Shown here piece after piece: positions 2,096 to 43,540 of a stretch of DNA of 64,000 nt. The DNA comes from Gammaproteobacteria bacterium (GTDB taxonomy: Bacteria > Pseudomonadota > Gammaproteobacteria > JAUZRS01). Each line of letters opens with the position of its first letter. The first letter of the stretch is position 1. The notes under the pieces are model-generated. The model ran no database searches and was not told where the DNA came from. It worked only from the letters and a program-made list of their open reading frames with translations. The stretch lies in assembly GCA_030949385.1 (NCBI GenBank), contig JAUZSP010000003.1:186001-250000 (forward strand), written 5' to 3'. A program made the position numbers and the translations under genes.

Positions 2096-2569
2096 TCAGC
2101 TCAAACTGCTTTTATAACGGTTCAGGCTGCTTTCTAATGCACTAATATTCGGAATGTGCATAACACTGGCATTCACTTCCACCTCTTTAGCAATATAAGG
2201 ACAATTGCCATTGACCTCTATTGCCACCAAGTCCGACTCCTGCAGACTAAAAAACTTCGGAATATCGCGCATATACAGACCGTAATAGCCGTACACGCAG
2301 TGACTGCTCAAAGCATACAACACCACAATGCGACCACGCCCTGCCTTCATACTGCCAGTACCACACAACTCCTCAAAACAGATTAACGGAATGTCCAAAC
2401 CACACCACTCAAACTGACCTAACAACCAATGGGGCGCAGAATTCAACTGCTCTACTTTACGACTGGGAACCACCTCAGCCACCATCACATTGGGCAACAA
2501 AAGATTGAAACTCTCCAGCGGCATCATCAAACATTTCAATACATCAGCATCAGTCATGGAGGTATTCAT
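2096..2569 (-). CDS. chpC: CheW-domain protein, ChpC-like
   Basis: A 157-aa CheW-like protein at the distal end of the pil-chp operon. CheW-domain proteins are adaptors linking chemoreceptor and histidine kinase. The N-terminus reads [23 protein letters not shown], where the segment up to [12 protein letters not shown] and the later GRGRIVVLY and [12 protein letters not shown] resemble CheW beta strands. It overlaps the 3' end of chpA by 20 nt, so it is translated as part of the same unit. In Pseudomonas the equivalent position after chpA is filled by chpB (methylesterase) and chpC; only the ChpC-like gene is seen here. The name rests on position and fold and is less certain than the CheW assignment. 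Confidence 0.75.
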
Positions 2570-5500
2570 CCAGCCCGACCTCTTTTAACACCAACCGAAT
2601 GCGAGCCAGTAAATCACTCTCTTGGTAGGGTTTACCCAAATAGTGTTTTACCCCCAAGGCTTCCGCTTTTTCTCGGTGTTTTTCACCTGTGCGCGAAGTA
2701 ATCATAATAATAGGCACTCGACTCAGCCGTTCGTTTTTCTGCATATACGAAGCGACTTCGTAACCGTCCATTTTTGGCATTTCAATGTCCAATAACATCA
2801 GATCCGGTATCGAGTTACCCAGATGCGCCAAGGCATCAACGCCATCTTTTGCGGTAAAAACCTCTAAATTATGACGTTGCAAGGCTCTCGTTGCCACTCT
2901 TCGCATAGTGATGGAGTCATCTACAACCAAAATTTTAGGTTTGCGTAACTCGTCACTGAGTAGTTGTGATTGCTGCTTGGCTCCCTGTGAAAAATCCCCT
3001 CCAGAGCGAATAAACGCACCTAGATCCAGCACCAAAACCACATTGCCATTGGAAAGAATCGAAGCACCGGCAATGCCGCGTACCGCGTTCACTTGCTGAC
3101 CGGTGGGTTTCACCACCAAATCTTGCCGCCCCAGCAAAAGATCGGCATGAATCGCCACTCGTCGCTGACCTGCTTTCAACATAATCAACGGCTGGGTGGC
3201 CTCCTCACTCTCTAAGTTTGGTACACCAATCTCCAGTACGGAAGCCAAACTCTGAACTTCGTACTCAACACCTGAATACTCATAACGCAGGGAACGATCT
3301 TGGTAATAACCCGCCAGCTGTTCGACGGGCAATTGGGTCACACCCTCAATCGCCATTACCGGAATGGCATAAATCTCTTCAGCAGCTTTGACCAGCAAAG
3401 AGTGAGCAACAGCCAAAGTCTGCGGCAGACGAATCAAAAACTCAGTGCCAACGCCCTTTTCACTTTTGATGCTGAGACTGCCCCCCATCTGTTTAACTTC
3501 GCTCTCGACCACACTCAAACCCATGCCTCGACCAGCAATTTGGGTCACAGCCGATGCGGTACTCAAACCGTCTTTTAAGGTCAGTAGCAACAAATCGCTG
3601 TCACTGAGCTGCTTATCAGGGTCAATCAAACCCTGTTGTTCCGCTTTTTTCCGAATTAGGCTCAGATCCATGCCTGCACCATCATCACGCACCGCAATCA
3701 AAACATCATTACCTTCGCGTTTTAAGATAATCTGAACTTGACCTGCTTCCGGTTTATTCAAATGACGACGCTGATTTAACGATTCAATGCCATGCGCAAC
3801 GGCGTTGCGTAAAATATGCTCAAGGGGAGCCACCATTTTTTCATGGGCACCGCGCTCAATTTCAATCTCACCGCCTTCCATAACAAACGAGACTTTTTTA
3901 TGCAGAGCACCGCCTGTTTGACGAACGGTACGAGCAAAACGTTGCACCAAAACATCAAAACGAGTCATACGGGTCTGGATTAAACCCTGTTGCAGTTCAG
4001 CCCCCACCCGAGCCTGCTGCTGCAACAGATCTTCACTTTCACGGGTTAAACCTTCTAAAAAGTCTTTAATATTACGTAGATCATTGACACTTTCTAATAA
4101 CGAACGAGAGAGCTGTTGCAAAGCCGAATAACGATCCAACTCCAGTGGATCAAACTCCAATTGCGAAGAGGTCAACGACGTTGGATCATCATCCTGCTCG
4201 TGTCGAAACAGAATTTGCGCTTCCGTTTCGGCCGACATATTGCGCAGCTGGCTGCTCAAACGGGTCACGGTCTGATCCAGTTCGGTCAAATTAAAACGAT
4301 AATCGCCAATTTGCTCGGCAAGTCGAGTATGAAGGATGTTCACCTCACCGGCGGAACTGACCAATTTATCCAATAAGTCAGCCCGCACCCGAGTCTGTTC
4401 CTGTGTCGTTTCAGACACCGGTTCCAGTGGTAATAAAAACTCGGGTTCAGGCTCTGGCTCAAGTTCTGCCTCGGGTTCTGGCTCGGGTTCTGGCTCGGGT
4501 TCTGGCTCGGGTTCTGGCTCGGGTTCTGGCTCAGGTTCTGGCTCAGGTTCTGGCTCAGGTTCTGGCTCGGGTTCTGGCTCGGGTTCTGGCTCGGGTTCTG
4601 GCTCGGGTTCTGGCTCGGGTTCTGGCTCGGGTTCTGGCTCGGGTTCTGGCTCGGGTTCTGGCTCAGGTTCTGGCTCAGACTCAAGTTCTGGTTCTTGTAA
4701 AGCATTACGCAGGGCTTGTTGCAGATCTTCATCCCAACTGACAGGGTTGCGCTCCACCGCCTGTTCCAACATGACATTCAATGCATCAACCGAAGCCTGA
4801 ATTAACTCAAAATCAGATTCAGTCGGCTGGTTATCACGATTCTCTATGACAAAAATCAACGATTCTAAATTATGGCTGAGATCCGCAATTGGGGTAAAAC
4901 TCGCCATCCGAGCCCCCCCTTTTAACGTATGCAACTGACGCTGAAAATCCATCACCAACAGTTGCTCATTAGGCTCTAAACGCCATTTATCAAGAATGGT
5001 ATCGCAGGCTTTTAACAACTCTTCTGCTTCATCAATAAAGATATCCAACAGATCCATGTCTTCAATAACGATGGCCTGCGTGTTTTCCAGCTCTACCTTT
5101 TCCAATAACATCGCTAAACTGGCGATCAACTTCCGCAGTGAAGGTGGCTCTGTTTTTTCTCCAACCAAACAGTTCACTGCCAACTGAATCGCGGTCATAC
5201 ACTCACGAAACAGAGCGGTATCGTTACCTTCGAGCAGTTTGCCCGCCTCCTGCTTACGGCGAACAATGTTCTCCATTACACCACTCAACAACGCAATGTC
5301 TTCCACCTCAGCGGTCTGAGCACTGCCGTGCAAGGTGTGCAAGGCACGCAACAGCTCCCGACTCATGGGCAGCAGATCATCCTGCTCTTGCGCCTCATCC
5401 AACAGATGGCGCAAAGTATCCAGATGAACAAGTGACTCTTCCCGAAAAATCCTCAACAAATCAGGATCAATTGCCCCAAAATCAGCAGGGCTAAACATGC

Positions 5501-8093
5501 TGGTTTCAAGCTCTTGATGCGGTTTTAATGGAGCGTCCTTTTTCTCCTCTGCTGCCTCATCTGTTATTGCACTCTGCTCTAATTCTGGCTCTAACTCAGA
5601 GACAGGCTCCGGCAGCGACTGCGTTACGGATGTGTCCTCATTCAACACCTCAAAAGGCGAAGCAACTTTCTTCACAGGAACAAGTAACTCATCGCCGACT
5701 TTTATTTGATGCGTTCGCTCAATCAGCTGAGCAATTTTTTCCACTGGCTCCGTATTGCCCTGCAGCTGTTCAATTAACTGCGGCAACACCCCCAAAGCTT
5801 CTTCCAATAAGTTGAAAGCCAGCTCAGAAGCAGGCAGATCCTCTTCCAAAACACGGTTTAGCAAGCGCTCCATCGACCAAGCAAACTCGCCCATCAACTC
5901 AGCCCCCAATAAACGACCACTGCCTTTTAAAGTATGAAACGAGCGTCTTAAGGTGGTTAAAAACGCTTCATTTTTGGGGTCATGTCGCCACTGTGGTAGA
6001 TACTCTCCAACGCGCTCCAACTCTTCCAGCGCCTCTTCTATGAAGATTTCCAGAATCTCTTCATCCACCTCGCTGTCTGCCAACACTTGCAGCTTCAGCT
6101 CTCCCTCCAATCCTTGCACAACCGTGATGGCTGCTTTATTAGTGATCGGAACATCTTCCATAACAGAAACAACAGGCGGCTCAATCTTAGGTTGATCTGT
6201 TATTGCAGAGACATTGGCAGAGATAGGCACCACTTTACTCGGCAACGACTCACTGTTCTCAACGGAAAGAGCGGTTCTTTGCTCTTCGTTTAAGGCAACA
6301 GACTCACTCTCTGCGCTGCGCAGTTCAATGACATTATTGGCTATTTTAGGCTGAGAATCGTTTGCTTCGGGCAACTCAGCCAGCGTTTTTATCAGCACCA
6401 CCATGGCACGGTTTGGCTGATCTAGCAGCTTGGGAACATCCAGAGCAAACTCACCAATACTGGCCAAATAATTCTCAATCCCCACCACCACATCAGCCAA
6501 CAGATCCTGTTCTTGGTTGGTCGGTTTTAGGTTTGCGCTTAAAAAGCCCTCTTGAATGTAACGACGCACATCAATCAACAACGGTGACAAAAGCGGCAAC
6601 GGTAAAATATCAGCGCAGCCAGAAAGATGCGTCAGCAATCGTGGCACCTCTTGCAAACCCTCAGCCGAAACCGTTTGAGAGCTAAAATAGATCAACAGGG
6701 ACTCTTTTATCTTATCAACGTCACGCTGCATCTCACGCATCAACGTCGTTAACAGCAGACGAAACTCCGTTTCTGGCAGCTCTTTTGCGGGCAGACGACG
6801 CAACACACCGTCTCTGGTTTCATCGTACTCAACCAGAGAGACGATATAGTCATCCAATTTGATCTCTACCTGCAGCAGGGTCGCCGCTAAATCCAGTAAA
6901 TCATCCCCGCTCACCTCTTCCTGACCTTGCAGCAGCAGGGTCAACAGCGGCATTGTCTCTTCTAACAAAGCACGCGGCGCTGCCATTCCAAGCATACCAA
7001 GGGTATCGTTGATCCGAGTCAAGATGGATTGCAAAGGCTCTAGGTCGGCTAGATTACGCTCTTCACTGTGAACATAAATCTCAATAATATCTTTGATACG
7101 TGAAATGTCTTCCTTGATGCCGTGATTAACCGCTTGCAGGAGATCTTTGGTTGGATTGGCATAGGCTCGTTTTGCATGCTCAAGTTCTTGCAACGAAGGC
7201 AACAAGGCATCCAACTGATAAAGCTGTTTGACCTTTTTAACGTTCACTGCCGAGGAGCTGGAACGAGAAACAACGTACAGCAGATTTTTCATCACCCCCA
7301 GAGGCACCTGACGTTCAAAAGCCGCATCACCGACTCGAATCAGCCCCATTAACAGACGATCCAACTGCGCTAACAGCTGCTTCATTGCCGCGCTGACCTG
7401 CAAACCACCGTCAGCCAAGGACTCAACGACTGCGCTGTAAATCAACCACAAACGACGTGTTCTAGCCCCACGCGAGAAAGCATACAGTTTTTCTAAAACC
7501 GACTGAATTAAACGCAAACTTTTTAAAGAATCACTGGAATTATGCCAGCCAAGCAAACCCTTTTGACAATGGGGGCGTAATTTTTTCGCGGCTAATTGCA
7601 AAGAAGGCGTTTTAGGATTTTTTAGCGGTACAAAAGCCGCTTTGGGCAAGAGTAAGTCGGGGAAATAAAGCACACTTTCAGAGAGCAAGTTTTTATTGCG
7701 GCTGGCTCTGAGGTCATTCAAAACCGACAATAGAACCAAAGGCACATCAGGACTGCCAGACTGCACTCGCCCCAAATACTCAGGCAGCGCCAAGGCGGCG
7801 TTCATCAAAACATCCAATGATTCCGCACGGGGAGGCTCATCAGTAGCCAACAAATCCTGCAATAAGAACTCCATCTCCTCGGCCAAAATAGCCGCGCCGT
7901 ACACTTCCATCAGAGAGAGCGTCTGCGTCACCTGATGTAAAGTCGCAGAACAATCGCCCAACAAGCCCGATTCTCTACAGTCTCCCTCGGCGTAACGCTC
8001 CAAGCGACTCTGAACCCCCCCCAGAAGGGGAATTAAAATATCTATAACTTTGTTTGCTGAGCTTAAAATTTCAGCTTTAAATTGTCGTCTCAT
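2550..8093 (-). CDS. chpA: ChpA/PilL-type hybrid chemosensory histidine kinase with response regulator
   Basis: Giant cytoplasmic CheA-like kinase (1,847 aa) of the type IV pilus chemosensory pathway; it phosphorylates PilG and PilH. From the N-terminus: a FimL-like helical region, then Hpt modules with FHTLKGSGR (about residue 718), LHTLHGSAQ (about 917) and [10 protein letters not shown] (about 1053). A Glu-Pro repeat follows (about 1138-1207), then the dimerisation region ([15 protein letters not shown]), the HATPase with N-box [12 protein letters not shown] (about 1428), a CheW domain, and a C-terminal receiver with phospho-acceptor in [13 protein letters not shown] (about 1766). It starts 46 nt after pilJ. 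The EPEP linker is encoded by a near-perfect 12-bp tandem repeat and is the odd feature of this copy. Confidence 0.95.
4471..4678 (-). repeat. 12-bp tandem repeat encoding (EPEP)n in chpA
   Basis: On the + strand the unit is TCGGGTTCTGGC, repeated about 17 times head to tail; four neighbouring units near 4530-4560 and the last ones carry TCA instead of TCG. On the coding strand each unit reads GAGCCAGAACCC-type codons, giving Glu-Pro-Glu-Pro. As 12 is a multiple of three, gain or loss of units keeps the frame. The array sits between the last Hpt module and the dimerisation domain, so it makes a stiff, acidic linker of variable length. Confidence 0.97.
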
Positions 8094-8139
8094 GGCTCAG
8101 CTGTCGCCTTTTATAGTCACCAAGCGGATTTACATTAAT

Positions 8140-10224
8140 TTAACCAAGTAAGTCTTTGTTACGCAAAATCACCGTATCCATTTCAGCCTGATCTATCTCG
8201 GGCAGTTTAAAACCCTTAACCTTTTCCCGTAACGAGTTCGCCAGCAGCGTTAACTCACCAATCGAGGAGGCCGTTTTGCTAATACTGCCCGAGGTCTGGG
8301 CAGTAATGTCTTGAATCACATCCACGGTATTGGAGATCGTGGTCGCCGCCTGCGCCTGCTGACTCGCCTCCTTGGATATATTTTGAATCAGGCTGGCCAA
8401 TTTTTTGGAACCAGATTCAATCGCAATCAGAGCCTCACCAGCGTTTTCAGCCAAATTGGCCCCTCTCACCACACCGGCTGTGCTCTGCTCCATCGAACTG
8501 GCCGCTTCACTGGTGTCCGCTTGAATGGTACGCACCAATACCTCAACTTGTTTAGAAGCTGCACTGGTACGCTCCGCCAATCGCTGAACTTCATCGGCCA
8601 CCACCGCAAAACCGCGTCCCGCTTCACCTGCTGTCGAAGCTTGAATCGCTGCGTTCAGAGCCAGAATATTGGTTTGATCGGCAATCTCGGTAATCAAACC
8701 AGTGATGTCACCAATCTCCTGCGAGCTTTCACCCAAACGTTTAATCCGTTTCGAGGTTTCCTGAATCTGCTCACGAATGGTATCCATACCCTCAATGCTC
8801 AAACGCACTGTACTGGCTCCTTTTGAAGCCATATCCACCGAACTCATCGCCACCCGCGCAGAACCGAGGGCGTTTTTAGAGACCTTATCCATTGCTGCCG
8901 CCATCTCACCAATGGAGTGACTGGCGGTGGCCACTTCGCTGGCTTGATGAGCGCTGGCGTCTTTTAGATCAATCGCAATCGCTTGCGTGGTGCCTGCCGC
9001 CGAAGCCACTTCACCGGCGGTTTGATTAATGGTGGTCACCAAACTGCGCAGGGCATCAATGGCGTAATTAACCGAATCGGCAATGGCACCGGTAATGTCT
9101 TCGGTGACCGTCGCATGGGTAGTCAAATCGCCTTCGGCCAGATTAGTCAGTTCATCCAACAGACGCAAAATAGCGCGTTGATTACGCCGCCCCTGTTCCG
9201 TCGTTTCTGCCAAACGTTGACGTGCTTCACGTACCAGAAAATAACCCAAACCTAACAACGTCGCGACCGCCAACAGACCCGCCACCACACCTTGGAAAAA
9301 AAGCACATCCAAACGACGTGAATAGTGGACAAAACCCTGTTCGAGACGAGTGGTCGAAGCCAACAGGTCGGCACTGAAATATTCCGCTTTTCCCGCCGCT
9401 TCATTAACCGAAAACAGCAACGGTGACAGCTCTAAAATACCGCCCATATTTTGATGAATTTCAGCAAACAGCGTTTCAACCTCTGTCAATTTTTTACGAA
9501 TCGTCGAGTTCTTAACCACTTTGATATTAAGGCTTTTGGAACCTTTTAACATGCCTTCCAATACTTGCCCAAACAGTGCCACATCTTGACCAAAAAAATC
9601 AGCTGCCGTCGCCACATCCTTCTGTCCAGCAACAATGTTATTGAGGTTATTTTCAATCCGTTGCACCAGCATTAATTGGCGGGTAGCCAAATAAATTAGA
9701 TCTTGTTTGGCCTTTTTCGATACTAAAATATTCACCACCTCTTCAGATATGGCCGATAGTTTAGGAGTCAAATCATGCAGACCATCAACAAAACGGTTCA
9801 CACTGATAATTGAATCACGTCCACCAAGAATGGTATCGATATTGACCCGCCCCGCCTGCCAGCTTTTTTCAACCGCCACCAGCGGGGGCAGTAATTCAGC
9901 AGGAATCGGAGGCAAACCCGTTGCTGGATTGCCATTTCTTAACAGATCTAAAGTCTCTAAAAAACGCTCTTCAAAGGCCTGTAGACGTGTACTGGCGGCC
10001 CGACTGCCACGCGCAGATTCAGCCGCATTGGCAACGATACGCTGCGATAACAACCGCTGCTCACTCACAATGGACATATATTCATTATCATAGCGGCCGT
10101 GTACCGCTCCATAGATGAAAGCCCCAGCCATGGCCGTGATAAAAACAACCAACAGGATGCCAAGCAAGACACTGGGTTTACCCGCGCTGAACTTATGTAC
10201 GGAAATTGATCCCCGCGCCTTCAT
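8140..10224 (-). CDS. pilJ: Methyl-accepting chemotaxis protein PilJ
   Basis: Inner-membrane chemoreceptor (694 aa) of the type IV pilus Chp pathway. A first membrane segment lies near residues 17-39 ([19 protein letters not shown]), then a long helical periplasmic region, a second membrane segment near 305-330 ([18 protein letters not shown]), a HAMP-like stretch and a cytoplasmic coiled-coil signalling domain. The hairpin tip has the MCP-conserved [20 protein letters not shown] followed by [19 protein letters not shown]. It lies between pilI and chpA in the canonical order. No pilK methyltransferase gene follows it, unlike in Pseudomonas, which bears on whether the receptor is methylated by a dedicated enzyme. 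Confidence 0.96.
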
Positions 10225-10299
10225 CCTCTCTCTCCTCGAATACCCACATGCTTTTCCATCATTTTATAATCCCTTGCTGACCCAAACCGGCAGCAAAGC

Positions 10300-10857
10300 T
10301 TATGAGGCTTGCTGTTTTGTAACCTGCAAAAAAGCCTCACTGGCCACCAAATCTCGTAAACTTAACACCAACCACTCTTCATCAAGACGTTTGAACATCG
10401 AATGCACAAACGGTGCAATAGACTTCTCTAAAGGGGGCAGTGTTTTTATTTTCTCTTCCATATAAAAATGTTTCAAACCCAAAACATTTTCCACTTTTAC
10501 ACCGACCCGCAGATTTTTTTTATTGAACATTAACACCCGAGACGAAGCTCGATTAACTAAATTTGTGCCATAAAAAAAACCGTTCAAATCACTGATCGGC
10601 AACAGAGCACCACGAATATTAGCAATGCCGACAAACCAACTTTGGGTGCGCGGTACCCGAGCATAAGAAGGCTGCTCTAAAATTTCAGCAATCTCACTCA
10701 TGGCAACCACAAACCGCTGCTTACCCAGATGAAAAGCAATGCCCGCCCACTTATCTCGCACCTCTTCCCGACTGGGAAGCGCCACATTACGCTGCAAAAT
10801 TCGGCGTTCATACTCTTGCAAAATTTTGAACGGTGAGCTGGTACTTAACTCAATCAT
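10300..10857 (-). CDS. pilI: CheW-like adaptor PilI
   Basis: Chemotaxis adaptor (185 aa) that couples PilJ to the ChpA kinase. The CheW domain covers most of the protein after an N-terminal extension of about 35 residues: WAGIAFHLGKQRFVVAMSEI, then PRTQSWFVGIANIRGALLPI and SDLNGFFYG, the canonical CheW beta-barrel strands. Its ATG overlaps the pilH stop by one base, so the two are translationally coupled. The next gene downstream is pilJ. Confidence 0.93.
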   Translation of the reverse strand: MIELSTSSPFKILQEYERRILQRNVALPSREEVRDKWAGIAFHLGKQRFVVAMSEIAEILEQPSYARVPRTQSWFVGIANIRGALLPISDLNGFFYGTNLVNRASSRVLMFNKKNLRVGVKVENVLGLKHFYMEEKIKTLPPLEKSIAPFVHSMFKRLDEEWLVLSLRDLVASEAFLQVTKQQAS

Positions 10858-11222
10858 CAGTTGTTTAAGCTCGCTTTCACGCGCCGCAACAGATCTTCTT
10901 CTTTGATCGGTTTTACAATGTAATCCACCGCTCCTTGGCGCAAACCCCAGACCTTATCGGTGTGTTGATCTTTGGTGGTAATCATAATCACCGGTATCGC
11001 AGAAGTATCTTCATTGTTGTGCAGCTGCCGAGTGGCCTGAAAACCGTTCATTCCCGGCATCACCACATCCATCAAAATCAAATCCGGCTGCAAACAGCCT
11101 GCTTGTTGCACCCCATCTTCACCGTTCGTGGCCACACTCACTTTAAACCCGTTTTTCTCCAATATGCTCTGAACGAAATGAACCTCTGTCGGAGAATCAT
11201 CCACAATCAACACATTGAGCAT
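10857..11222 (-). CDS. pilH: Response regulator PilH
   Basis: Single-domain CheY-like receiver (121 aa), phosphorylated by ChpA. It shows the acidic pocket VDDSP near the start, the phospho-acceptor Asp in LILMDVVMPGMNG, the Thr in PVIMITTK and the Lys in YIVKPI. In Pseudomonas PilH antagonises PilG and promotes retraction or dephosphorylation; that role is assigned by order (second receiver of the operon) and similarity. Its stop overlaps the pilI start. Confidence 0.92.
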   Translation of the reverse strand: MLNVLIVDDSPTEVHFVQSILEKNGFKVSVATNGEDGVQQAGCLQPDLILMDVVMPGMNGFQATRQLHNNEDTSAIPVIMITTKDQHTDKVWGLRQGAVDYIVKPIKEEDLLRRVKASLNN

Positions 11223-11307
11223 CGTCTTACTCCAAATATCAACATTAAGTCCAAATACAACACAAGCACCCCATCAACGCTCGCAACCAACAAAACAAAC
11301 TGATCTT

Positions 11308-11718
11308 TTAACTCAAAACAGCGTAGGTTTTGATCGCACCCAGCAGATCTTCTTTGGTAAACGGTTTGGTAACGTAATGTTCCGAACCCACCATGCGCCC
11401 ACGCGCACGATCAAAAATGCTGTCTTTGCTCGACAACATAATCACTGGCGTATTTTTAAACAAGCTGTTGTGTTTGATCAAAGCACAGGTCTGGTAGCCA
11501 TCCAGCCTTGGCATCATGATGTCGATAAACACAATGTCCGGTTTGTGCGCCATAATTTTAGACAACGCCTCAAAACCGTCTTCAGCGGTCACGACCTCAA
11601 ACCCCTCTTTTTTCAATAAATTTTCAGCCGAGCGACGAATGGTGTTGCTGTCATCAACCACCAATACCGTTTTAGTCCGCTCTGTTTCTGTTCTCGTAGA
11701 CACATCAACCTCTCTCAC
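11308..11718 (-). CDS. pilG: Response regulator PilG
   Basis: First gene of the pil-chp operon, a 136-aa stand-alone receiver. After a short N-terminal tail come VLVVDDSNTIRRSAENLL, the phospho-acceptor region IVFIDIMMPRLDGYQTC, PVIMLSSKD and the Lys in HYVTKPFTKEDLL. In the Pseudomonas pathway phosphorylated PilG drives pilus extension and, through FimV/FimL, cAMP synthesis. It is divergent from gshA, and the operon promoter should lie in the 211 nt between 11719 and 11929, where I see no clear hexamers. Confidence 0.93.
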   Translation of the reverse strand: MREVDVSTRTETERTKTVLVVDDSNTIRRSAENLLKKEGFEVVTAEDGFEALSKIMAHKPDIVFIDIMMPRLDGYQTCALIKHNSLFKNTPVIMLSSKDSIFDRARGRMVGSEHYVTKPFTKEDLLGAIKTYAVLS

Positions 11719-13247: not shown

Positions 13248-14204
13248 ATGAAACTCAAACTCGGCATCGTCATGGACCCCATCGAACAGATCAAACCGCA
13301 CAAAGACAGCAGCTTGGCCATGCTGCTGGCGGCGCAAAAACGCGGTTGGTCGTTGCACTACCTGCAACAGCATGATCTCTATTTAGAACAGGAGATTGCT
13401 TGGGGAACGATGCGCCCTCTCAGCGTCGCAGACGATGCGCACAAGTGGTTTGAACTGGGTGAAAAAAGCGATCAACCGCTGCATCACCTTGATGCCATCT
13501 TAATGCGCAAAGATCCGCCCTTTAATATGGATTACATCTACAGCACCTACCTGCTGGAGCGCGCTGAAGCGGCGGGCTGTTTGGTGGTCAACCGAGCATC
13601 GAGTCTGCGCGATGCGAATGAAAAACTCTTCACCTCCGAATTCCCGCAGTGCTGCGCGCCCACCTTGGTCAGCAGCCAAGCGCCGCGCCTGTTGGCTTTT
13701 TTACAGCAACACCAAGACATCGTGGTTAAACCGCTCGACGGCATGGGCGGTGAATCCATTTTCCGATTGCGCCTCAACGACCCCAATACCAGCACCATTT
13801 TGGAAGTCATCACGCATAAAAACCAGCGCCTGATCATGGCGCAAAAATTCCTTCCCGAAATCAGTGCCGGTGACAAACGCATCCTGCTGGTCAATGGTGT
13901 ACCGGCTCCCTTAGCACTGGCGCGCATCCCCGCCAAAGGCGAGCTGCGCGGCAACATTGCAGCCGGAGGACGCGGTGTACCGGTACCGCTCAGTGATCGG
14001 GACCACTGGATTTGTGAACAGGTCGCACCCACGCTGCGCGAAAAAGGCCTACTGTTTGTTGGTCTCGATGTAATCGGCGACTATTTGACCGAAATCAACG
14101 TTACCAGCCCCACCTGCATCCGCGAGCTGGATCGGGAAGGCAACTTGGACATTGCAGGTGATTTAATGGAGTGCATTGCCGCACAATTAACGGAACAATC
14201 ATAA
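13248..14204 (+). CDS. gshB: Glutathione synthetase
   Basis: ATP-grasp enzyme joining gamma-glutamylcysteine and glycine to make glutathione. At 318 aa it matches the E. coli enzyme in length. Start chosen at ATG 13248, preceded by a good ribosome site (GGGAGAGG) and giving MKLKLGIVMDPIEQI. Motifs: DAILMRKDPPFNMDYIYSTY, VVKPLDGMGGESIFRL (ATP-grasp), RILLVNGVPAPLALARIP, and EINVTSPTCIRELD near the C-terminus. Its TAA overlaps the apbE ATG by one base. Confidence 0.96.
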   Translation: MKLKLGIVMDPIEQIKPHKDSSLAMLLAAQKRGWSLHYLQQHDLYLEQEIAWGTMRPLSVADDAHKWFELGEKSDQPLHHLDAILMRKDPPFNMDYIYSTYLLERAEAAGCLVVNRASSLRDANEKLFTSEFPQCCAPTLVSSQAPRLLAFLQQHQDIVVKPLDGMGGESIFRLRLNDPNTSTILEVITHKNQRLIMAQKFLPEISAGDKRILLVNGVPAPLALARIPAKGELRGNIAAGGRGVPVPLSDRDHWICEQVAPTLREKGLLFVGLDVIGDYLTEINVTSPTCIRELDREGNLDIAGDLMECIAAQLTEQS

Positions 14205-15235
14205 TGTTACGAACACTCTCCTTACTTGCCCTGCTGCTTCTGCTCAGCGCCTGTGGTGACAAAAAGCCCCAGATCCACAACGAACGTTTTTTGGCGATGG
14301 GCACGTTGGTGGACATCAGCCTTTACGGAGTTGAAGAGGAAAAACAGCGCCTCGCCATCCAAAAATTAACTCAGCTGTTCGAGCAACTCGACACCCGCTG
14401 GCACGCTTGGGATCCCAGCCCCTTAACGCAAATCAACCAACAACTGCACGCAGGTAAAACCGCTCAACTGCCCACAGAGATGCAACCGCTGTTCAAACAA
14501 GCTCAGCAGCTTTCGCTCAGCAGTCAGGGCTTATTTAACCCCGCCATCGGTGAATTAATCGCTCTGTGGGGCTTTCACAGCGACGATCTGCCCACCACAC
14601 CGCCAGCAGAAAAAGCGATTCAAACGCTCTTGGCGCATAAAAATCGCATGAGTGACATTCACCTCAAGACAACGGAAATCAGCAGCAACAATCCCAATGT
14701 TCATTTTGATTTTGGTGCCATCGCCAAAGGTTACGCCGTCGATCAAGCCATCGAGACTCTCAAACATCTGGGGATCAAAAATGCCATCGTCAATGCCGGT
14801 GGCGACCTGCGCGCCATCGGCCACCCAGAAGGTCGCCCTTGGCGCATCGGCATCCGCGCCCCTCGGCGACAAGGCATCATCGCCTCCCTCTCCGTGCATG
14901 AAGGCGAAAGCGTCTTCACCTCCGGCGATTACGAACGATTTTTTGATTACCAAGGTCAACGCTATCACCACATCATCGACCCCCGCAGCGGCACACCCGC
15001 CGACAACTGCCAATCGGTCACCGTCATCACCGACAACGCTGCTTTGGCCGATGCCGCTGCCACCGCGCTGTTCATTGCCGGTGGTGATCACTGGCTGGAA
15101 ATCGCCCGCAGCATGAAACTGGATCAAGTAATGCTCATCGACAAACAAGGCACCGTTCATATCACCCCTGCGATGCAGAAACGGCTCAAATTTGAAGGCC
15201 CAACTCCAGACAAGATCGTGGTTGAGTCGCTCTGA
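14204..15235 (+). CDS. apbE: FAD:protein FMN transferase (lipoprotein)
   Basis: Transfers FMN from FAD onto a Thr of periplasmic flavoproteins. A lipoprotein signal (LALLLLLSAC, lipidated Cys at residue 18) fits an ApbE anchored on the outer face of the inner membrane. Recognised from ERFLAMGTLVDISLYG, DFGAIAKGYAVDQAIE, NAGGDLRAIG and HHIIDPRSGTPA. The 343-aa length is typical. ATG 14204 overlaps the gshB stop. It is followed with one-base overlaps by a NusG domain II protein and a Gx-family membrane protein, a set often found with flavin-based electron transfer across the membrane. No FMN-binding target protein is encoded nearby. Confidence 0.94.
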   Translation: MLRTLSLLALLLLLSACGDKKPQIHNERFLAMGTLVDISLYGVEEEKQRLAIQKLTQLFEQLDTRWHAWDPSPLTQINQQLHAGKTAQLPTEMQPLFKQAQQLSLSSQGLFNPAIGELIALWGFHSDDLPTTPPAEKAIQTLLAHKNRMSDIHLKTTEISSNNPNVHFDFGAIAKGYAVDQAIETLKHLGIKNAIVNAGGDLRAIGHPEGRPWRIGIRAPRRQGIIASLSVHEGESVFTSGDYERFFDYQGQRYHHIIDPRSGTPADNCQSVTVITDNAALADAAATALFIAGGDHWLEIARSMKLDQVMLIDKQGTVHITPAMQKRLKFEGPTPDKIVVESL

Positions 15236-15606
15236 TGTTTTGGGGTGAGACACTATTAGACCGTGTGGTGGTGGTGCTCGCCACCCTGTCCGTCTTGAGT
15301 CTCTACCCTCTGTTGTGGGGTGGACAAAAACCCGCCAGTCACGCCCTCATTCAAGTGCAAAAAGAAGAGCCACGCAGCGCCAGCCTGCAACATCGCCAAC
15401 TGCTGCACATCAACGGCAAAATCGGCATCAGCACCATTGAGATCAAAGACGGTTTCGCCCGTTTTATCGACTCCCCTTGTCGCAGCAAAGTTTGTATCCA
15501 TTACGGTTGGCTCAAACACAGCGGCGAGGTAATCGCCTGCCTACCCAACAGCGTCACCTTAAGTCTGGTGGGCGGCGACAGCCGCTTTGACTCGATCAAT
15601 TTTTGA
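15235..15606 (+). CDS. NusG domain II-containing membrane-anchored protein
   Basis: A 123-aa protein with one N-terminal membrane segment (about residues 10-28, VVVVLATLSVLSLYPLLWG) and a NusG_II-like extracytoplasmic domain with three conserved cysteines (in SPCRSKVCIHYGWL and VIACLPN). The molecular function of this family is not established; it co-occurs with ApbE and Gx transporters and is thought to belong to flavin or electron-transfer systems in the envelope. It overlaps apbE at the start and the Gx gene at the end by one base each, so the three are probably co-translated. Confidence 0.85.
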   Translation: MFWGETLLDRVVVVLATLSVLSLYPLLWGGQKPASHALIQVQKEEPRSASLQHRQLLHINGKIGISTIEIKDGFARFIDSPCRSKVCIHYGWLKHSGEVIACLPNSVTLSLVGGDSRFDSINF

Positions 15607-34782: not shown

Positions 34783-36153
34783 GTGAGCACATCTCTGTGG
34801 AACCGTTGTCTCTTGTTATTAGAGACCGAACTGGATGAGCAACAACTCAACACCTGGATTCGCCCTTTACAAGCAGAGCTAAAGGATGGCTGCCTGCATC
34901 TTTTTACCCCAAATCGTTTTGTTCAAGATTGGGTGAGAAATAATTACCTAGAAAACATAGAACGTATTATTGCTCAACTGGATCAAAACAACGTTGTTGT
35001 GATGCTGGAAGTCGGGGTTAACAAACAACCGACAGCCACCACTGTTATTGAAAAACCAAAAGCACCTGCTGAAAAACCCAGCCAAGAACATATCAATTTT
35101 CTCAAAAAAGACAACTCTCCTTTACAACCAATAGAAAGCAATTTAAACCCTATTTTTACCTTTGAAACCTTTGTTGAAGGTAAATCCAACCAGCTTGGCA
35201 GAGCAGCCTCTTTGCAAATCTCAGATAATCCAGGTTCAGCTTACAATCCTCTGTTTATTTACGGTGGAGTCGGGTTGGGTAAAACCCATTTGATGCATGC
35301 GGTAGGCAATAGCATATTGCAAAAAAACCCAGCAGCACGTGTGCTTTATCTGCATTCAGAACGCTTTGTGGCTGATATGATCAAGGGTCTACAACGCAAT
35401 ACAATGAACGCCTTTAAACGCTACTATCGATCCTTAGATGCTCTGTTGGTAGATGACATTCAGTTTTTTGCCGGAAAAGAGCGCTCACAAGAAGAATTTT
35501 TTCATACCTTTAACGCGCTTTTAGAGGGCAAGCAACAGATTATTCTTACTTGTGATCGTTATCCCAAAGAGGTTAATGGTCTTGAGGAGAGGCTCAAATC
35601 TCGCTTTGGCTGGGGTTTGACGGTTGCCATCGAACCTCCTGAACTGGAAACCCGCGTCGCAATTTTGAAAAACAAAGCGGAGCAAAATCACATTGACCTA
35701 CCCAGCGATGTGGCTTTTTTCATCGCCAAGGGTATACGTTCTAATGTTCGAGAGCTTGAAGGCGCATTACGACGAGTGGTTGCAAATGCCCAGTTTACTG
35801 GTCGCGCCATTACCCAAGCTTTTGCTGAAGAGGCGCTTGGAGATTTAATATCTTTACAAAACAAATTGGTAACCATTGAAAATATTCAGAAGACCGTAGC
35901 AGAATACTATAAGATCCGAGTGGCAGATCTGCTCTCCAAACGTCGCACTCGTTCCATTACTCGACCACGCCAAATTGCCATGAGTCTTGCGAAAATATTA
36001 ACCAGCCACAGCCTTCCTGAAATCGGTAATGCGTTTGGAGGTAGGGATCATACAACTGTACTTCATGCCTGTAGAAAAGTGGAAGAACTCAAGCAGAGTG
36101 ATGCCTCTATAGCGGAAGATTATATTAATTTAAATCGTATTTTAGCCTGTTGA
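34783..36153 (+). CDS. dnaA: Chromosomal replication initiator protein DnaA
   Basis: ATP-dependent initiator that binds DnaA boxes and melts oriC. The 456-aa protein starts at GTG 34783 behind AGGAG (the ATG five bases upstream is out of frame). Domain [24 protein letters not shown]+ Walker [15 protein letters not shown], Walker [13 protein letters not shown], then [17 protein letters not shown]; domain [22 protein letters not shown], which contacts the 9-mer. Followed by an origin-like region, dnaN and recF. Confidence 0.98.
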
Positions 36154-36379
36154 TAACCCATGTATAACCCTGTGGATAAGCTGTGCAAAAGCTGTTGATA
36201 AGAAAGACAAATACTTATCCACAATTTAATCCACAGCTTATCCACAGGAAACAGGCCACTTATGAACAACTTATCCAGAGGTTTATCTACATGCTAATGG
36301 CATGAATTTAAAAGAGAAAAATGACTTATCCACAGAAAATGGGCTCCCTTATAACTATAACTATAAGGTATATATATAT
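36154..36379. other. oriC: Putative chromosomal origin, oriC
   Basis: The dnaA-dnaN gap is packed with DnaA boxes. Perfect 9-mers: TGTGGATAA 36171-36179, TTATCCACA 36215-36223, 36238-36246 and 36326-36334. Near matches: TGTTGATAA 36193-36201 and TTATCCAGA 36271-36279. An AT-rich stretch, including a TA-repeat at about 36350-36392, precedes or overlaps the start of dnaN and fits an unwinding element. Location next to dnaA and dnaN, diverging gene arms and the strand-composition change support this as the origin. Confidence 0.88.
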
Positions 36380-37483
36380 ATGTACTATATAATACAGACT
36401 GAAAATTTGTTGGCTGCTTTACAAAAAACCATTACGGTTATTGAGAAACGTCAGACACTCCCAATACTCGCCAATGTTCTGCTTATTTGCGATGAAGACA
36501 GATTAAAGCTCAAAGCAACCGATTTGGAAATAGAAATCGGTTCAGAAGCAATTCTGTTGGAAACTCATGAGACTGGAGAAATCACAGTTCCAGCCCGTAA
36601 GTTATTCGATATCTGCCGTACTCTACCTGCCGACAGTCAAATTAAGTTTACTTTGAAGGAGGGGCGTGTTTACATAGTCTCCAATCGAAGTCGATTTGTA
36701 TTGTCAACATTACCTGCCACAGAGTATCCGGTACTCGATGCGCTGCAAAACCCAACTGTTTTTAAAATCAGCCAATCGGCGTTAAAAAAGCTATTGGATA
36801 AAACAGCTTTTGCTATGGCTCAACAGGATGTTCGTTATTATTTGAATGGTTTGCTGTTGGAAATTAATTCAAATTCAATCAAAAGTGTCACCACCGATGG
36901 GCATCGCTTGGCATTGTCTAGCGTGGAGCAATCATTGGATATTGATTCCAACCAGCAAATTATTCTGCCACGCAAAGGGATTATTGAATTATTGCGTCTC
37001 ATTGATGATTCAGATGATGAAGTGGAAATTTCTTTGACTTCAAATCATATTCAAGTTGAATTAAAAGATGCCCGTTTTACTTCGAAGTTGATTGATGGCA
37101 AATTTCCTGATTATTCCCGTGTCGTGCCTTCGGACTGTCCAAACATGATGCTGGCAAACAGAGAGCAGTTACGCAGTGCTCTTATTCGTACCGCCATTTT
37201 GACCAATGACAAATACAAGGGCGTTCGTTTTCAGCTCGATAATCACCTGTTAAAAATAAAAACCCATAACCCTGAAAAGGAAGAGGCGGAAGAAGAGTTG
37301 GAAGTAAATTATCCTGGTAGTGCAGTTGAGGTCGGATTCAATATTAACTATCTGATGGATATTTTGAATGTGATTGATTCTGAGTTGGTGCAATTTAATC
37401 TGAAAGACTCAGGCAGCAGTTGCCTGATTCATAACGAGGGTGATACTACCTCTCAGTACGTGGTGATGCCGATGCGTTTGTAG
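36380..37483 (+). CDS. dnaN: DNA polymerase III beta subunit (sliding clamp)
   Basis: Ring-shaped processivity clamp for DNA polymerase III. The 367-aa product starts MYYIIQTENLLAALQKTITV; this start was chosen over an earlier in-frame ATG because it matches the family's N-terminus. The family's domain starts are at residues 1, 121 and about 240 by the pattern. Ending VVMPMRL is the conserved C-terminus. The AT-rich run before its start, with only AAGG as a ribosome site, overlaps the origin's AT-rich element. Followed one base later by recF. Confidence 0.96.
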   Translation: MYYIIQTENLLAALQKTITVIEKRQTLPILANVLLICDEDRLKLKATDLEIEIGSEAILLETHETGEITVPARKLFDICRTLPADSQIKFTLKEGRVYIVSNRSRFVLSTLPATEYPVLDALQNPTVFKISQSALKKLLDKTAFAMAQQDVRYYLNGLLLEINSNSIKSVTTDGHRLALSSVEQSLDIDSNQQIILPRKGIIELLRLIDDSDDEVEISLTSNHIQVELKDARFTSKLIDGKFPDYSRVVPSDCPNMMLANREQLRSALIRTAILTNDKYKGVRFQLDNHLLKIKTHNPEKEEAEEELEVNYPGSAVEVGFNINYLMDILNVIDSELVQFNLKDSGSSCLIHNEGDTTSQYVVMPMRL

Positions 37484-37484
37484 T

Positions 37485-41025
<3,541 letters not shown>

Positions 41026-41055
41026 TTTATACAACTTCCCCTCTTCACAGTTTTG

Positions 41056-41083
41056 AAACAGAGCCATCCTTTGGCTCTGTTTT
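41056..41083 (+). terminator. Rho-independent terminator after gyrB
   Basis: Arms AAACAGAGCCA (41056-41066) and TGGCTCTGTTT (41072-41082) pair perfectly around a 5-base loop, with Ts at the end. It ends the dnaA-dnaN-recF-gyrB group. Confidence 0.88.
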
Positions 41084-41358
41084 AGGGTAAACCACACTTT
41101 GTTGTCGTTTTTTTGAAACAAAGTTGCTTTATGTATACTCACTGGTTGTTAAATCCCAACAAAAAAGACAGGCGGTGCTTTTTTAGAGATAACCGGTGTT
41201 GCAAGAGTCGTCCAAATTGAATAAATTGTGACGCATTCCACAACTTTTGTTTGGGATGTTATTCGATGAATCGCGGAGTTGGAGAGTTCCTCGGTTTTGA
41301 ATGTAACTTTTTTACAACTACCCAAAATACGGTGTCGTAGACACTGGGAGAATCTTGT
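41084..41358 (+). promoter_or_regulatory. Upstream region of the Cyc2-like gene
   Basis: A 275-bp non-coding stretch. A possible promoter has TTGAAA (41113-41118) and TATACT (41134-41139), but the 15-base spacer is short. A small hairpin, GTGTC-GTA-GACAC (41332-41344), lies directly before the ribosome site GGGAGA. The long untranslated leader suggests regulated or independent expression of the cytochrome gene. Confidence 0.35.
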
Positions 41359-42630
41359 ATGAAATTCGCTTCTAAACTCGCTGTTACCGCAGCTGCTCTG
41401 ATGACCGGCATGTCTGGTCTGATGATTTCTGGTGAAGCAGGCGCAGTGCCTGCTTTTGCTCGTCAAACTGGCATGGCTTGCAACACCTGCCATTTCCAAT
41501 CTTTTCCTGCGTTAACCGCATTTGGGCGTTCTTTTAAAGCCGGTGGGTTCACCATGATGGGTGCGGCTCCTCTGATCGAAGCGGAAGGCCTTTCTTTGCC
41601 TTCTACTTTGAACGTCTCTGTGATTACTAAAATCCGTAACTCATGGACCAAAGATGATGGTGCAACAGGCTACACCAGTGAAATGGCATGGCCTGATGAA
41701 GCGGCTCTGTTGATCGGTGGTCGTTTGAATGCCGACACCGGTTATTTGATGGAGTTGGGTTTGGGAAAGGGCAGCAACTTCCTTTCCACCAAAGTTCACT
41801 TTAACTTGGCTCAAATGGGTGGTACGCAGATTTCTGTGATTCCTTTCTCCACTGATGGTTTGGGTGTGGCGTACGGCTTTGAATTGTTAAACACCGGTGC
41901 TTTCCGTGCGGATCGTCCGATTGAAGACCGTAAAGCCTTCAGTGCGAACCAATTGTTGACCGCAGGCGGTTCACCTCTGGACGGTGATGCAGGTGAAGCT
42001 TTGGGATTTGCTGCTGTTGCTTCTGCGAGTAACTTCTTTGTGAATGCTTCTGTTTATACCCCTATCTTTGAAGGCGATGTGATTTCAAAACAGGCCATTT
42101 ATCTTCGTGGTGCGTACATGACCGATGTTGCTGGTTGGGATGTGGGCGCAGGTGCTCAGATTTACACCGGTGGCTTTGATACGGGTTCTCATGGCGCAGC
42201 TAATGCTGAAACCAACGTGTTTGATTTCCAAGCACAAGGTGCTGTTGGTGGAATGCCTCTGGGTCTTTACGGCAGTGTTGGTAGCAGCCCCAAAGGCACC
42301 GCTGCTGATCACAACGCCTATAACGGTTCACTTGTGACAGATGCTTCTGCTTTGGGTGTTTTGGCTAAACTAAGCCCGACTGCTAAAACCGCTGTGTACG
42401 GTGCATTTTCTAAGTTGGATGATGAAGATTACAACATGGTTGCTGGTTCACCTGTCGCAAACGGTGCTGACCGTAGCGTAACTCGTGTCACAGTGGGCGC
42501 TACTTACAAGCCTTCTCAAAACATCTCTTGGGATGCCTACAGCACCACAACCACAACCACTTCTACTTTGGCTAACAGAGCCGATACAAGTGATATCTTG
42601 CTGATGCTGCAATTCTTCGCTGGTTACTAA
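41359..42630 (+). CDS. Cyc2-like fused cytochrome c-porin (outer membrane)
   Basis: A 423-aa protein with a signal peptide (MKFASKLAVTAAALMTGMSG, cleaved about residue 29), one heme c site CNTCH in the context FARQTGMACNTCHFQSFPAL followed by TAFGRSFKAGGFTM, and a long C-terminal part of alternating strands ending in the barrel-like LMLQFFAGY. This pattern (an N-terminal monoheme segment and an outer-membrane barrel of about 350 residues) is that of Cyc2, an outer-membrane cytochrome-porin that takes electrons from Fe(II) or other extracellular donors in neutrophilic Fe oxidisers and related bacteria. The assignment to the Cyc2 family is from motif and architecture; the donor is unknown. Single-gene unit with its own terminator. 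Confidence 0.7.
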   Translation: MKFASKLAVTAAALMTGMSGLMISGEAGAVPAFARQTGMACNTCHFQSFPALTAFGRSFKAGGFTMMGAAPLIEAEGLSLPSTLNVSVITKIRNSWTKDDGATGYTSEMAWPDEAALLIGGRLNADTGYLMELGLGKGSNFLSTKVHFNLAQMGGTQISVIPFSTDGLGVAYGFELLNTGAFRADRPIEDRKAFSANQLLTAGGSPLDGDAGEALGFAAVASASNFFVNASVYTPIFEGDVISKQAIYLRGAYMTDVAGWDVGAGAQIYTGGFDTGSHGAANAETNVFDFQAQGAVGGMPLGLYGSVGSSPKGTAADHNAYNGSLVTDASALGVLAKLSPTAKTAVYGAFSKLDDEDYNMVAGSPVANGADRSVTRVTVGATYKPSQNISWDAYSTTTTTTSTLANRADTSDILLMLQFFAGY

Positions 42631-42660
42631 GCACTACGCTTAATACCTATCTTGCGATTA

Positions 42661-42692
42661 AAAGGCGACCCTCTTTGAGGGTCGCTTTTTTT
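42661..42692 (+). terminator. Rho-independent terminator after the Cyc2-like gene
   Basis: Arms GCGACCCTC (42665-42673) and GAGGGTCGC (42677-42685) around TTT, followed by seven Ts. Strong intrinsic terminator. Confidence 0.93.
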
Positions 42693-42754: not shown

Positions 42755-43540
42755 GTGCAAAAACGACTGCTGTGTTTGATCTTGTTAATGATGTGTTCTC
42801 TCTCTTTGTTGGCTGAGGAGGTGATGTACGTTACCGATAAGTTGTATTTGGGGCTTTACAGCGAAAAGGGTGATAAGGGAAAGAAGCTCAAGACTCTGGT
42901 GAGTGGCAGTAAGTTATTTGTTGATGCCATTGAGGGTGGGTACGCTGAGGTTGAAACCGATCAAGGGGTCAATGGTTGGGTGAAAAAACGGTTTTTGGTT
43001 GAAAAAGCACCGGCCATTGTGCAGCTAAAACTCTTACAAGCTGAACAAAGCGTGGGAGAGGTAATAGAGAAGCAGGCTTTACAGGTGGAGAATAAAACAT
43101 TAAAAGAAAAAATAGCACTGCTAGAGAAAAGGTATGCCGAAAGTCAGCAAAAAGAGCGTTCAATACAAAGTGAACTAGAGCAATTGAAGCAGAATGGAGC
43201 TAAAGACGTTGTGCTTGAATCACACACTTCAGTTGTTAAAACAGAGTTAGAGGATAAAGATTCTGTTTGTACTAAGAGTGTTGCTGATGATTCAGAGACA
43301 AACGTATCTCAAGAGCTATTGGCGTTAAAACAGAAGGTGAGCCAAGCGGTGTCCATTTTGAGTTTGAGTCCCGATGAGAAAATGGAATCGTCAGAAAACC
43401 CATTGTTAACCAGTTTAAAAAACAATCAAATGGTTCTGATTGGTGTGTTGTTGTTGATTATTTTATTGAGCTTTTTTGTCGGAGCAAAATGGGTTAGCTG
43501 GCGGATTCGGAATAAATTGGGTGGTGATTTGGTCTGGTAA
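42755..43540 (+). CDS. TIGR04211-family SH3-domain membrane protein (YgiM-like)
   Basis: A 261-aa protein with a signal peptide (LLCLILLMMCSLSLLAEE), a bacterial SH3 domain (VMYVTDKLYLGLYSEKGDKG to VNGWVKKRFL), a coiled coil (KTLKEKIALLEKRYAESQQK) and a C-terminal membrane anchor (MVLIGVLLLIILLSFFVG). This layout is typical of the TIGR04211 SH3 domain family in gammaproteobacteria. Function unknown; a peptidoglycan- or envelope-associated role is plausible. The start codon is GTG, with AAGGAA as ribosome site. Confidence 0.85.
   Translation: MQKRLLCLILLMMCSLSLLAEEVMYVTDKLYLGLYSEKGDKGKKLKTLVSGSKLFVDAIEGGYAEVETDQGVNGWVKKRFLVEKAPAIVQLKLLQAEQSVGEVIEKQALQVENKTLKEKIALLEKRYAESQQKERSIQSELEQLKQNGAKDVVLESHTSVVKTELEDKDSVCTKSVADDSETNVSQELLALKQKVSQAVSILSLSPDEKMESSENPLLTSLKNNQMVLIGVLLLIILLSFFVGAKWVSWRIRNKLGGDLVW

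Follow-up and report, generated by a model that had tools for sequence, protein, structure and literature searches.

A cyc2 gene beside the dnaA-gyrB block of a predicted gammaproteobacterial sulfur oxidizer and the probable recombination of its barrel

The fifth gene counting from dnaA on a gammaproteobacterial contig raises the question whether it encodes an outer-membrane cytochrome-porin by which electrons would enter from outside the cell, which donor such a protein would serve, and why most of it differs so strongly from its counterpart in a sister species. The window, i.e. the whole stretch of 64,000 nucleotides that was analysed, contains dnaA, dnaN, recF and gyrB (starting at 34783, 36302, 37485 and 38602), followed by the gene under study (Table 1). 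The original prediction, made from the letters alone, had read this gene as Cyc2-like and had named Fe(II) or mineral sulfur as examples of possible electron sources. We consider it likely, for the reading as a whole, that this is a cluster 1-type cyc2 of a sulfur oxidizer with iron as an extra donor, and that its barrel was recombined within the genus.

Table 1. Features of the cyc2 locus, in window coordinates.
Feature	Position	Strand	Basis and remarks
dnaA-dnaN-recF-gyrB block upstream of cyc2	34783..41025	+	same order in sister species
cyc2 leader/upstream region	41083..41358	+	~93% identical to sister species except block ~41261-41278
cyc2 CDS	41359..42630	+	ORF, ATG start, 423 aa; homologues; profile match 196.6 bits
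Signal peptide, residues 1-29	41359..41445	+	MKFASK...SGEAGA; cleavage site by inspection only
Cyc2 cytochrome signature	41443..41514	+	AVPAFARQT (29-37), CNTCH (41-45), PAL (50-52)
Probable recombination tract	41480..42665	+	mostly 40-70% identical to sister species, flanks at least 90%; sliding nucleotide identity, synonymous comparison
Predicted 16-stranded beta-barrel porin, residues 84-422	41608..42624	+	AlphaFold2, Foldseek
Loop between strands 5 and 6, residues 166-212	41854..41994	+	model strands, conservation
Terminator hairpin GGCGACCCTC TTT GAGGGTCGC + T tract	~42661..42692	+	sequence, scan (palindrome listed on minus strand); kept in sister species

Published hallmarks of Cyc2 are AxPxFAR[Q/K][T/Y] before a single CxxCH, PxL four residues after it, a length of at least 365 aa and a 16-stranded barrel (PMC8406198). 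The protein matches the three motifs exactly and its 423 residues exceed the required length. CNTCH, encoded at nt 41479-41493, is its sole CxxCH and stands in the context AVPAFARQTGMACNTCHFQSFPALTAFGRSFK (R35, then QTGMA, then C41), and the arrangement CNTCH-FQSF-PAL places PxL four residues downstream. A barrel region of approximately 340 residues closes with FFAGY. All the features from which the original prediction had argued, namely a signal peptide, a single CNTCH, the ARQTG context and an aromatic C-terminal residue, are present in the ORF.

Neither Pfam nor NCBIfam scans of the product returned a matching model, and no solved structure was matched by sequence; since neither collection offered a curated model, the family was rebuilt from genomes. 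Homologues 36-55% identical over nearly the full length occur in other genomes. Six homologous loci lie in named MAGs. Identity is 36-40% for five and 54% for the sixth, in the gammaproteobacterial MAG AMOR20, which by its coordinates is the same contig as in our sister-species genome (G001). Cyc2 homologues were found in 62 of 369 genomes of the class and in 89 of 398 of the phylum, and those found phylum-wide come mostly from one family (f207) of another Pseudomonadota class, which is probably Zetaproteobacteria given its frequent full-length Cyc2 and the second Cyc2 type in small genomes (compare PMC11427306). A home-made profile, built from 29 homologues, all but one from f207, stands in for the FeGenie HMMs; it matches the protein over its whole length, at positions 20-393 of 401, with 196.6 bits, which bears out the Cyc2-profile match proposed as a check. 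The barrel alone scores 108.9 bits against the homologous profile, whereas 200 shuffles do not exceed 6.4 bits. Given this distance and the nearly full-length homologues, the pattern is no product of chance. The profile of the other Cyc2 group matches residues 11-135 only (89.6 bits).

The phylogenetic tree shows two well-supported halves, and the protein falls in the half that contains f207, among gammaproteobacterial copies that are sister to those of Deltaproteobacteria, in a tree built without a named cluster 1 reference. Gammaproteobacterial cluster 1 copies have been published as sister to deltaproteobacterial ones (PMC12442345), and cyc2 of the gammaproteobacterial MAGs of one metagenomic study was assigned to clusters 2/3 (PMC11427306). 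Placed by topology and by published description, the gene is a cyc2, probably of the group corresponding to cluster 1.

An AlphaFold2 model, built with seven sequences, has 16 main strands, a mean pLDDT of 65 and a pTM of 0.68; pLDDT is below 50 for residues 16-82, the signal peptide/cytochrome region. The best solved structures in a Foldseek search are outer-membrane porins, with OprO (4rjx, E-value 2.6e-10) and OprP (2o4v, 4.5e-10) as second and third hit, so that a 16-stranded porin is predicted, as had been anticipated. Together with the exact signature and the profile match this supports the identification as Cyc2. The longest loop of the model, connecting strands 5 and 6, carries the family-conserved GFELLNTGA..RPIE. 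It would sit at the position of constriction loop L3 of 16-stranded porins and may have a constricting role; we suggest that it could shape the ion path to the haem.

The gene had also been described as a lone unit near the origin with a long leader and a strong terminator, and the layout agrees, with hairpins bracketing it. The gap of 333 nt that separates it from gyrB has a terminator-like hairpin of gyrB in its first part, at ~41055-41082, and a second, strong hairpin follows the cyc2 stop codon. Judged by this layout cyc2 is a single-gene unit. An Rfam scan of the locus yielded no family, merely two sub-threshold chance matches, and a scan of the upstream region found no sigma-70 consensus site. 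Within the leader a short block, 41261-41278, is unlike the sister species, with ~93% identity on either side. The following gene, at 42755, encodes an SH3-like protein that scores below the Pfam cut-off, and the second gene downstream resembles ubiD by sequence; hence no electron-transfer gene directly adjoins cyc2. Elsewhere in the window, 2096-11718 encodes a CheW-like protein, a PilJ-type chemoreceptor, response regulators and an ORF of 1847 aa, a combination typical of Pil-Chp (type IV pilus chemotaxis), and at 14171-15606 the gene of the flavin transferase ApbE precedes one for a NusG domain II protein, a combination frequently associated with flavin-based electron transport.

The host genome (2.87 Mb, 98% complete) belongs to a gammaproteobacterial order represented here by two genomes, both of which have cyc2. 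It carries ccoN (cbb3 oxidase), the RuBisCO large subunit, soxB, dsrA together with dsrE and a dsrB-like match nearby (within 2.5 kb), and several dihaem c-type cytochromes. By this gene content the host is a sulfur-oxidizing autotroph, and it probably also oxidizes dissolved Fe(II). Cluster 1 Cyc2 of strain PV-1 directly oxidizes Fe(II) and has a fitting potential of ~208 mV, and a single haem in a porin has been argued to suit dissolved Fe2+ and not solids (PMC8406198). For a member of this cluster it seems reasonable to infer that Fe(II) would be used via Cyc2. Mineral sulfur appears less likely as donor than dissolved Fe(II), because monohaem Cyc2 is predicted in the literature to act on dissolved Fe2+ (PMC8406198).

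A true Cyc2 could nevertheless serve another donor than free Fe(II), be it conductive minerals, other cells or a reduced sulfur or metal compound, or act in general extracellular electron uptake. Such a role would suit the sulfur-oxidizing gene set of the host; in addition, gammaproteobacterial cyc2 has been linked to biocathode growth in Ca. Tenderia electrophaga, iron in sulfide minerals has been proposed as a source (PMC7329443), and for sulfur-oxidizing gammaproteobacterial symbionts with Cyc2 iron oxidation is a proposed and not a demonstrated role (PMC12442345). The direct Fe(II) oxidation and potential of the PV-1 protein, as well as the better fit of one haem to dissolved Fe2+ than to solids, argue against it, and we regard a donor other than free Fe(II) as unlikely. 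On the reading with Fe(II), the organism would join the bacteria that probably tap iron as well. Cyc2 of sulfur-oxidizing gammaproteobacteria has already been reported from vent chimneys (PMC7329443) and lucinid symbionts (PMC12442345), in both with iron oxidation as a proposed role, and the present gene adds one more. The genome of the sister species is a MAG from a vent, and the addition bears on the share that bacteria other than Zetaproteobacteria have in vent iron oxidation.

In plasmid-borne named relatives, genes for c-type cytochromes adjoin cyc2, joined in a single instance by one for a HiPIP. The dihaem cytochrome adjoining cyc2 in one genome (G349) was tried as a guide to a partner and rejected, as it has only weak relatives in the host genome. 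Directly after cyc2, Deltaproteobacteria MAGs encode a lipoprotein-like protein of ~300 aa with a PEGA domain (L001:9344-10213, L003:9418-10335, L004:9297-10199), which is a possible partner; we know of no prior discussion of a PEGA-domain protein alongside Cyc2. Two f207 genomes have three small lipoprotein-like ORFs next to cyc2 (L074:5373-7549, L077:4908-6928), most of which show the motif SMPKLFW or GMPKLFW after a cysteine. An Acidithiobacillus ferrooxidans plasmid has a Cyc2-like gene (L067:2965-4332) that adjoins a transposase and a c-type cytochrome, and a match on an Acidiphilium cryptum plasmid scores equally to it, with the same query range, identity and E-value; this is perhaps a mobile copy.

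Comparison with the sister species (41359-42665 against L006:8001-9245) reveals two very different levels of divergence. Protein identity is 98, 98, 93 and 97% for dnaA, dnaN, recF and gyrB, with dS between 0.24 and 0.40, and the first 30 codons of cyc2 are 93% identical with a dS of 0.19, whereas codons 69-423 are only 48% identical with a dS of about 1.2. Nucleotide identity of at least 90% drops to ~60% from ~41480, so inside the haem motif, and is back above 90% at ~42665-42680, between stop codon and terminator; the haem site is kept between the two species. Because dS cannot be relied on when proteins are only 48% identical, four-fold sites of conserved codons were compared as well: 31 of 81 such sites differ in the barrel (0.38) versus 172 of 801 (0.21) in the four flanking genes (p = 0.001), where codon usage predicts saturation at 0.55 for the barrel and about 0.65 for the flanking genes.

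The simplest reading, which we rate as probable, is that homologous recombination with a divergent relative exchanged the barrel in place. A divergent copy would have replaced the barrel-coding segment, leaving the gene at its place on the chromosome with its signal peptide and haem site. The rating takes into account that two genomes are compared, that the contig of the sister species, whose genome is a fragmented MAG, stops 144 nt past cyc2, and that dS is imprecise at such divergence. The two barrels are each other's nearest in the tree, hence the donor would probably come from the same subclade. A second copy or silent cassette as donor was considered and rejected, as both the host genome and the sister species have a single cyc2 match. 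The viral contigs searched contain no Cyc2 homologue, which leaves a phage-carried donor without support, and a literature search on mosaic or recombined Cyc2 found nothing relevant.

Alternatively, rapid diversifying selection might have produced the differences without any exchange, for instance in escape from phages. Porins are common phage receptors, and extracellular loops L4 and L7 have no identity between the two species, as such selection would have it. The strands, however, diverge widely too (30-75% identity), the synonymous divergence is raised along with that of the protein, and the tract has sharp edges. Nor is the barrel simply always fast-evolving: in a congeneric f207 pair with conserved synteny, in which the trpD-like, trpC and gshA flanks are mostly 80-87% identical, the barrel still shows 71%. 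Diversification in place therefore seems improbable to us, and exchange by recombination remains the preferred reading. Should it hold, trees of full-length Cyc2 mix two histories, that of the haem domain and that of the barrel, and one could then test what selective cause lies behind the altered pore of an iron oxidase. More tentatively, and with rather less confidence, the barrel might be an exchangeable module: within a genus, and at a single fixed place on the chromosome, recombination starting at the conserved haem motif would swap entire barrel segments, while haem domain and regulation stay; lineages would then acquire different pores, differing for instance as phage receptors or in substrate selectivity, on one and the same electron entry point.

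That the protein is an ordinary haem-free porin with an incidental CNTCH is hardly credible: although some Cyc2-profile matches are known to be porins without a haem motif (PMC8406198), all 16 homologues that were aligned, which come from more than one class, share the two cysteines and the histidine, and the region around the haem signature is the best-conserved stretch of the protein.

Among known systems MtrAB, PioAB and MtoAB also pair a porin with haem for electron passage across the outer membrane, but in them the cytochrome is a separate multihaem protein and the porin is larger, and a search with PF11854 for the MtrB/PioB porin gave no match in the host genome. Cyc2 of the second group (plasmids of Caballeronia and Methylocystis, with a CH..FPELT motif) shares the N-terminal signature and the fused architecture, but forms a separate branch with a support of 100, and its profile meets the protein in its N-terminal part only. 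Cyc2 of Mariprofundus ferrooxydans PV-1, of cluster 1, likewise has a signal peptide, AxPxFAR[QK][TY], one CxxCH, PxL and more than 365 aa (PMC8406198), and, by its published description, a predicted 16-stranded OprO/OprP-like barrel; unlike PV-1, the present host is a gammaproteobacterial sulfur oxidizer and not an obligate iron oxidizer. The same gene in the same type of organism, with dsr, sox and RuBisCO, is found in vent-chimney MAGs and Ca. Tenderia electrophaga (PMC7329443) and in lucinid symbionts (PMC12442345). Compared to these gammaproteobacteria, the cyc2 described here is distinguished by its place directly after gyrB, by the origin, and by a barrel that differs strongly between sister species.
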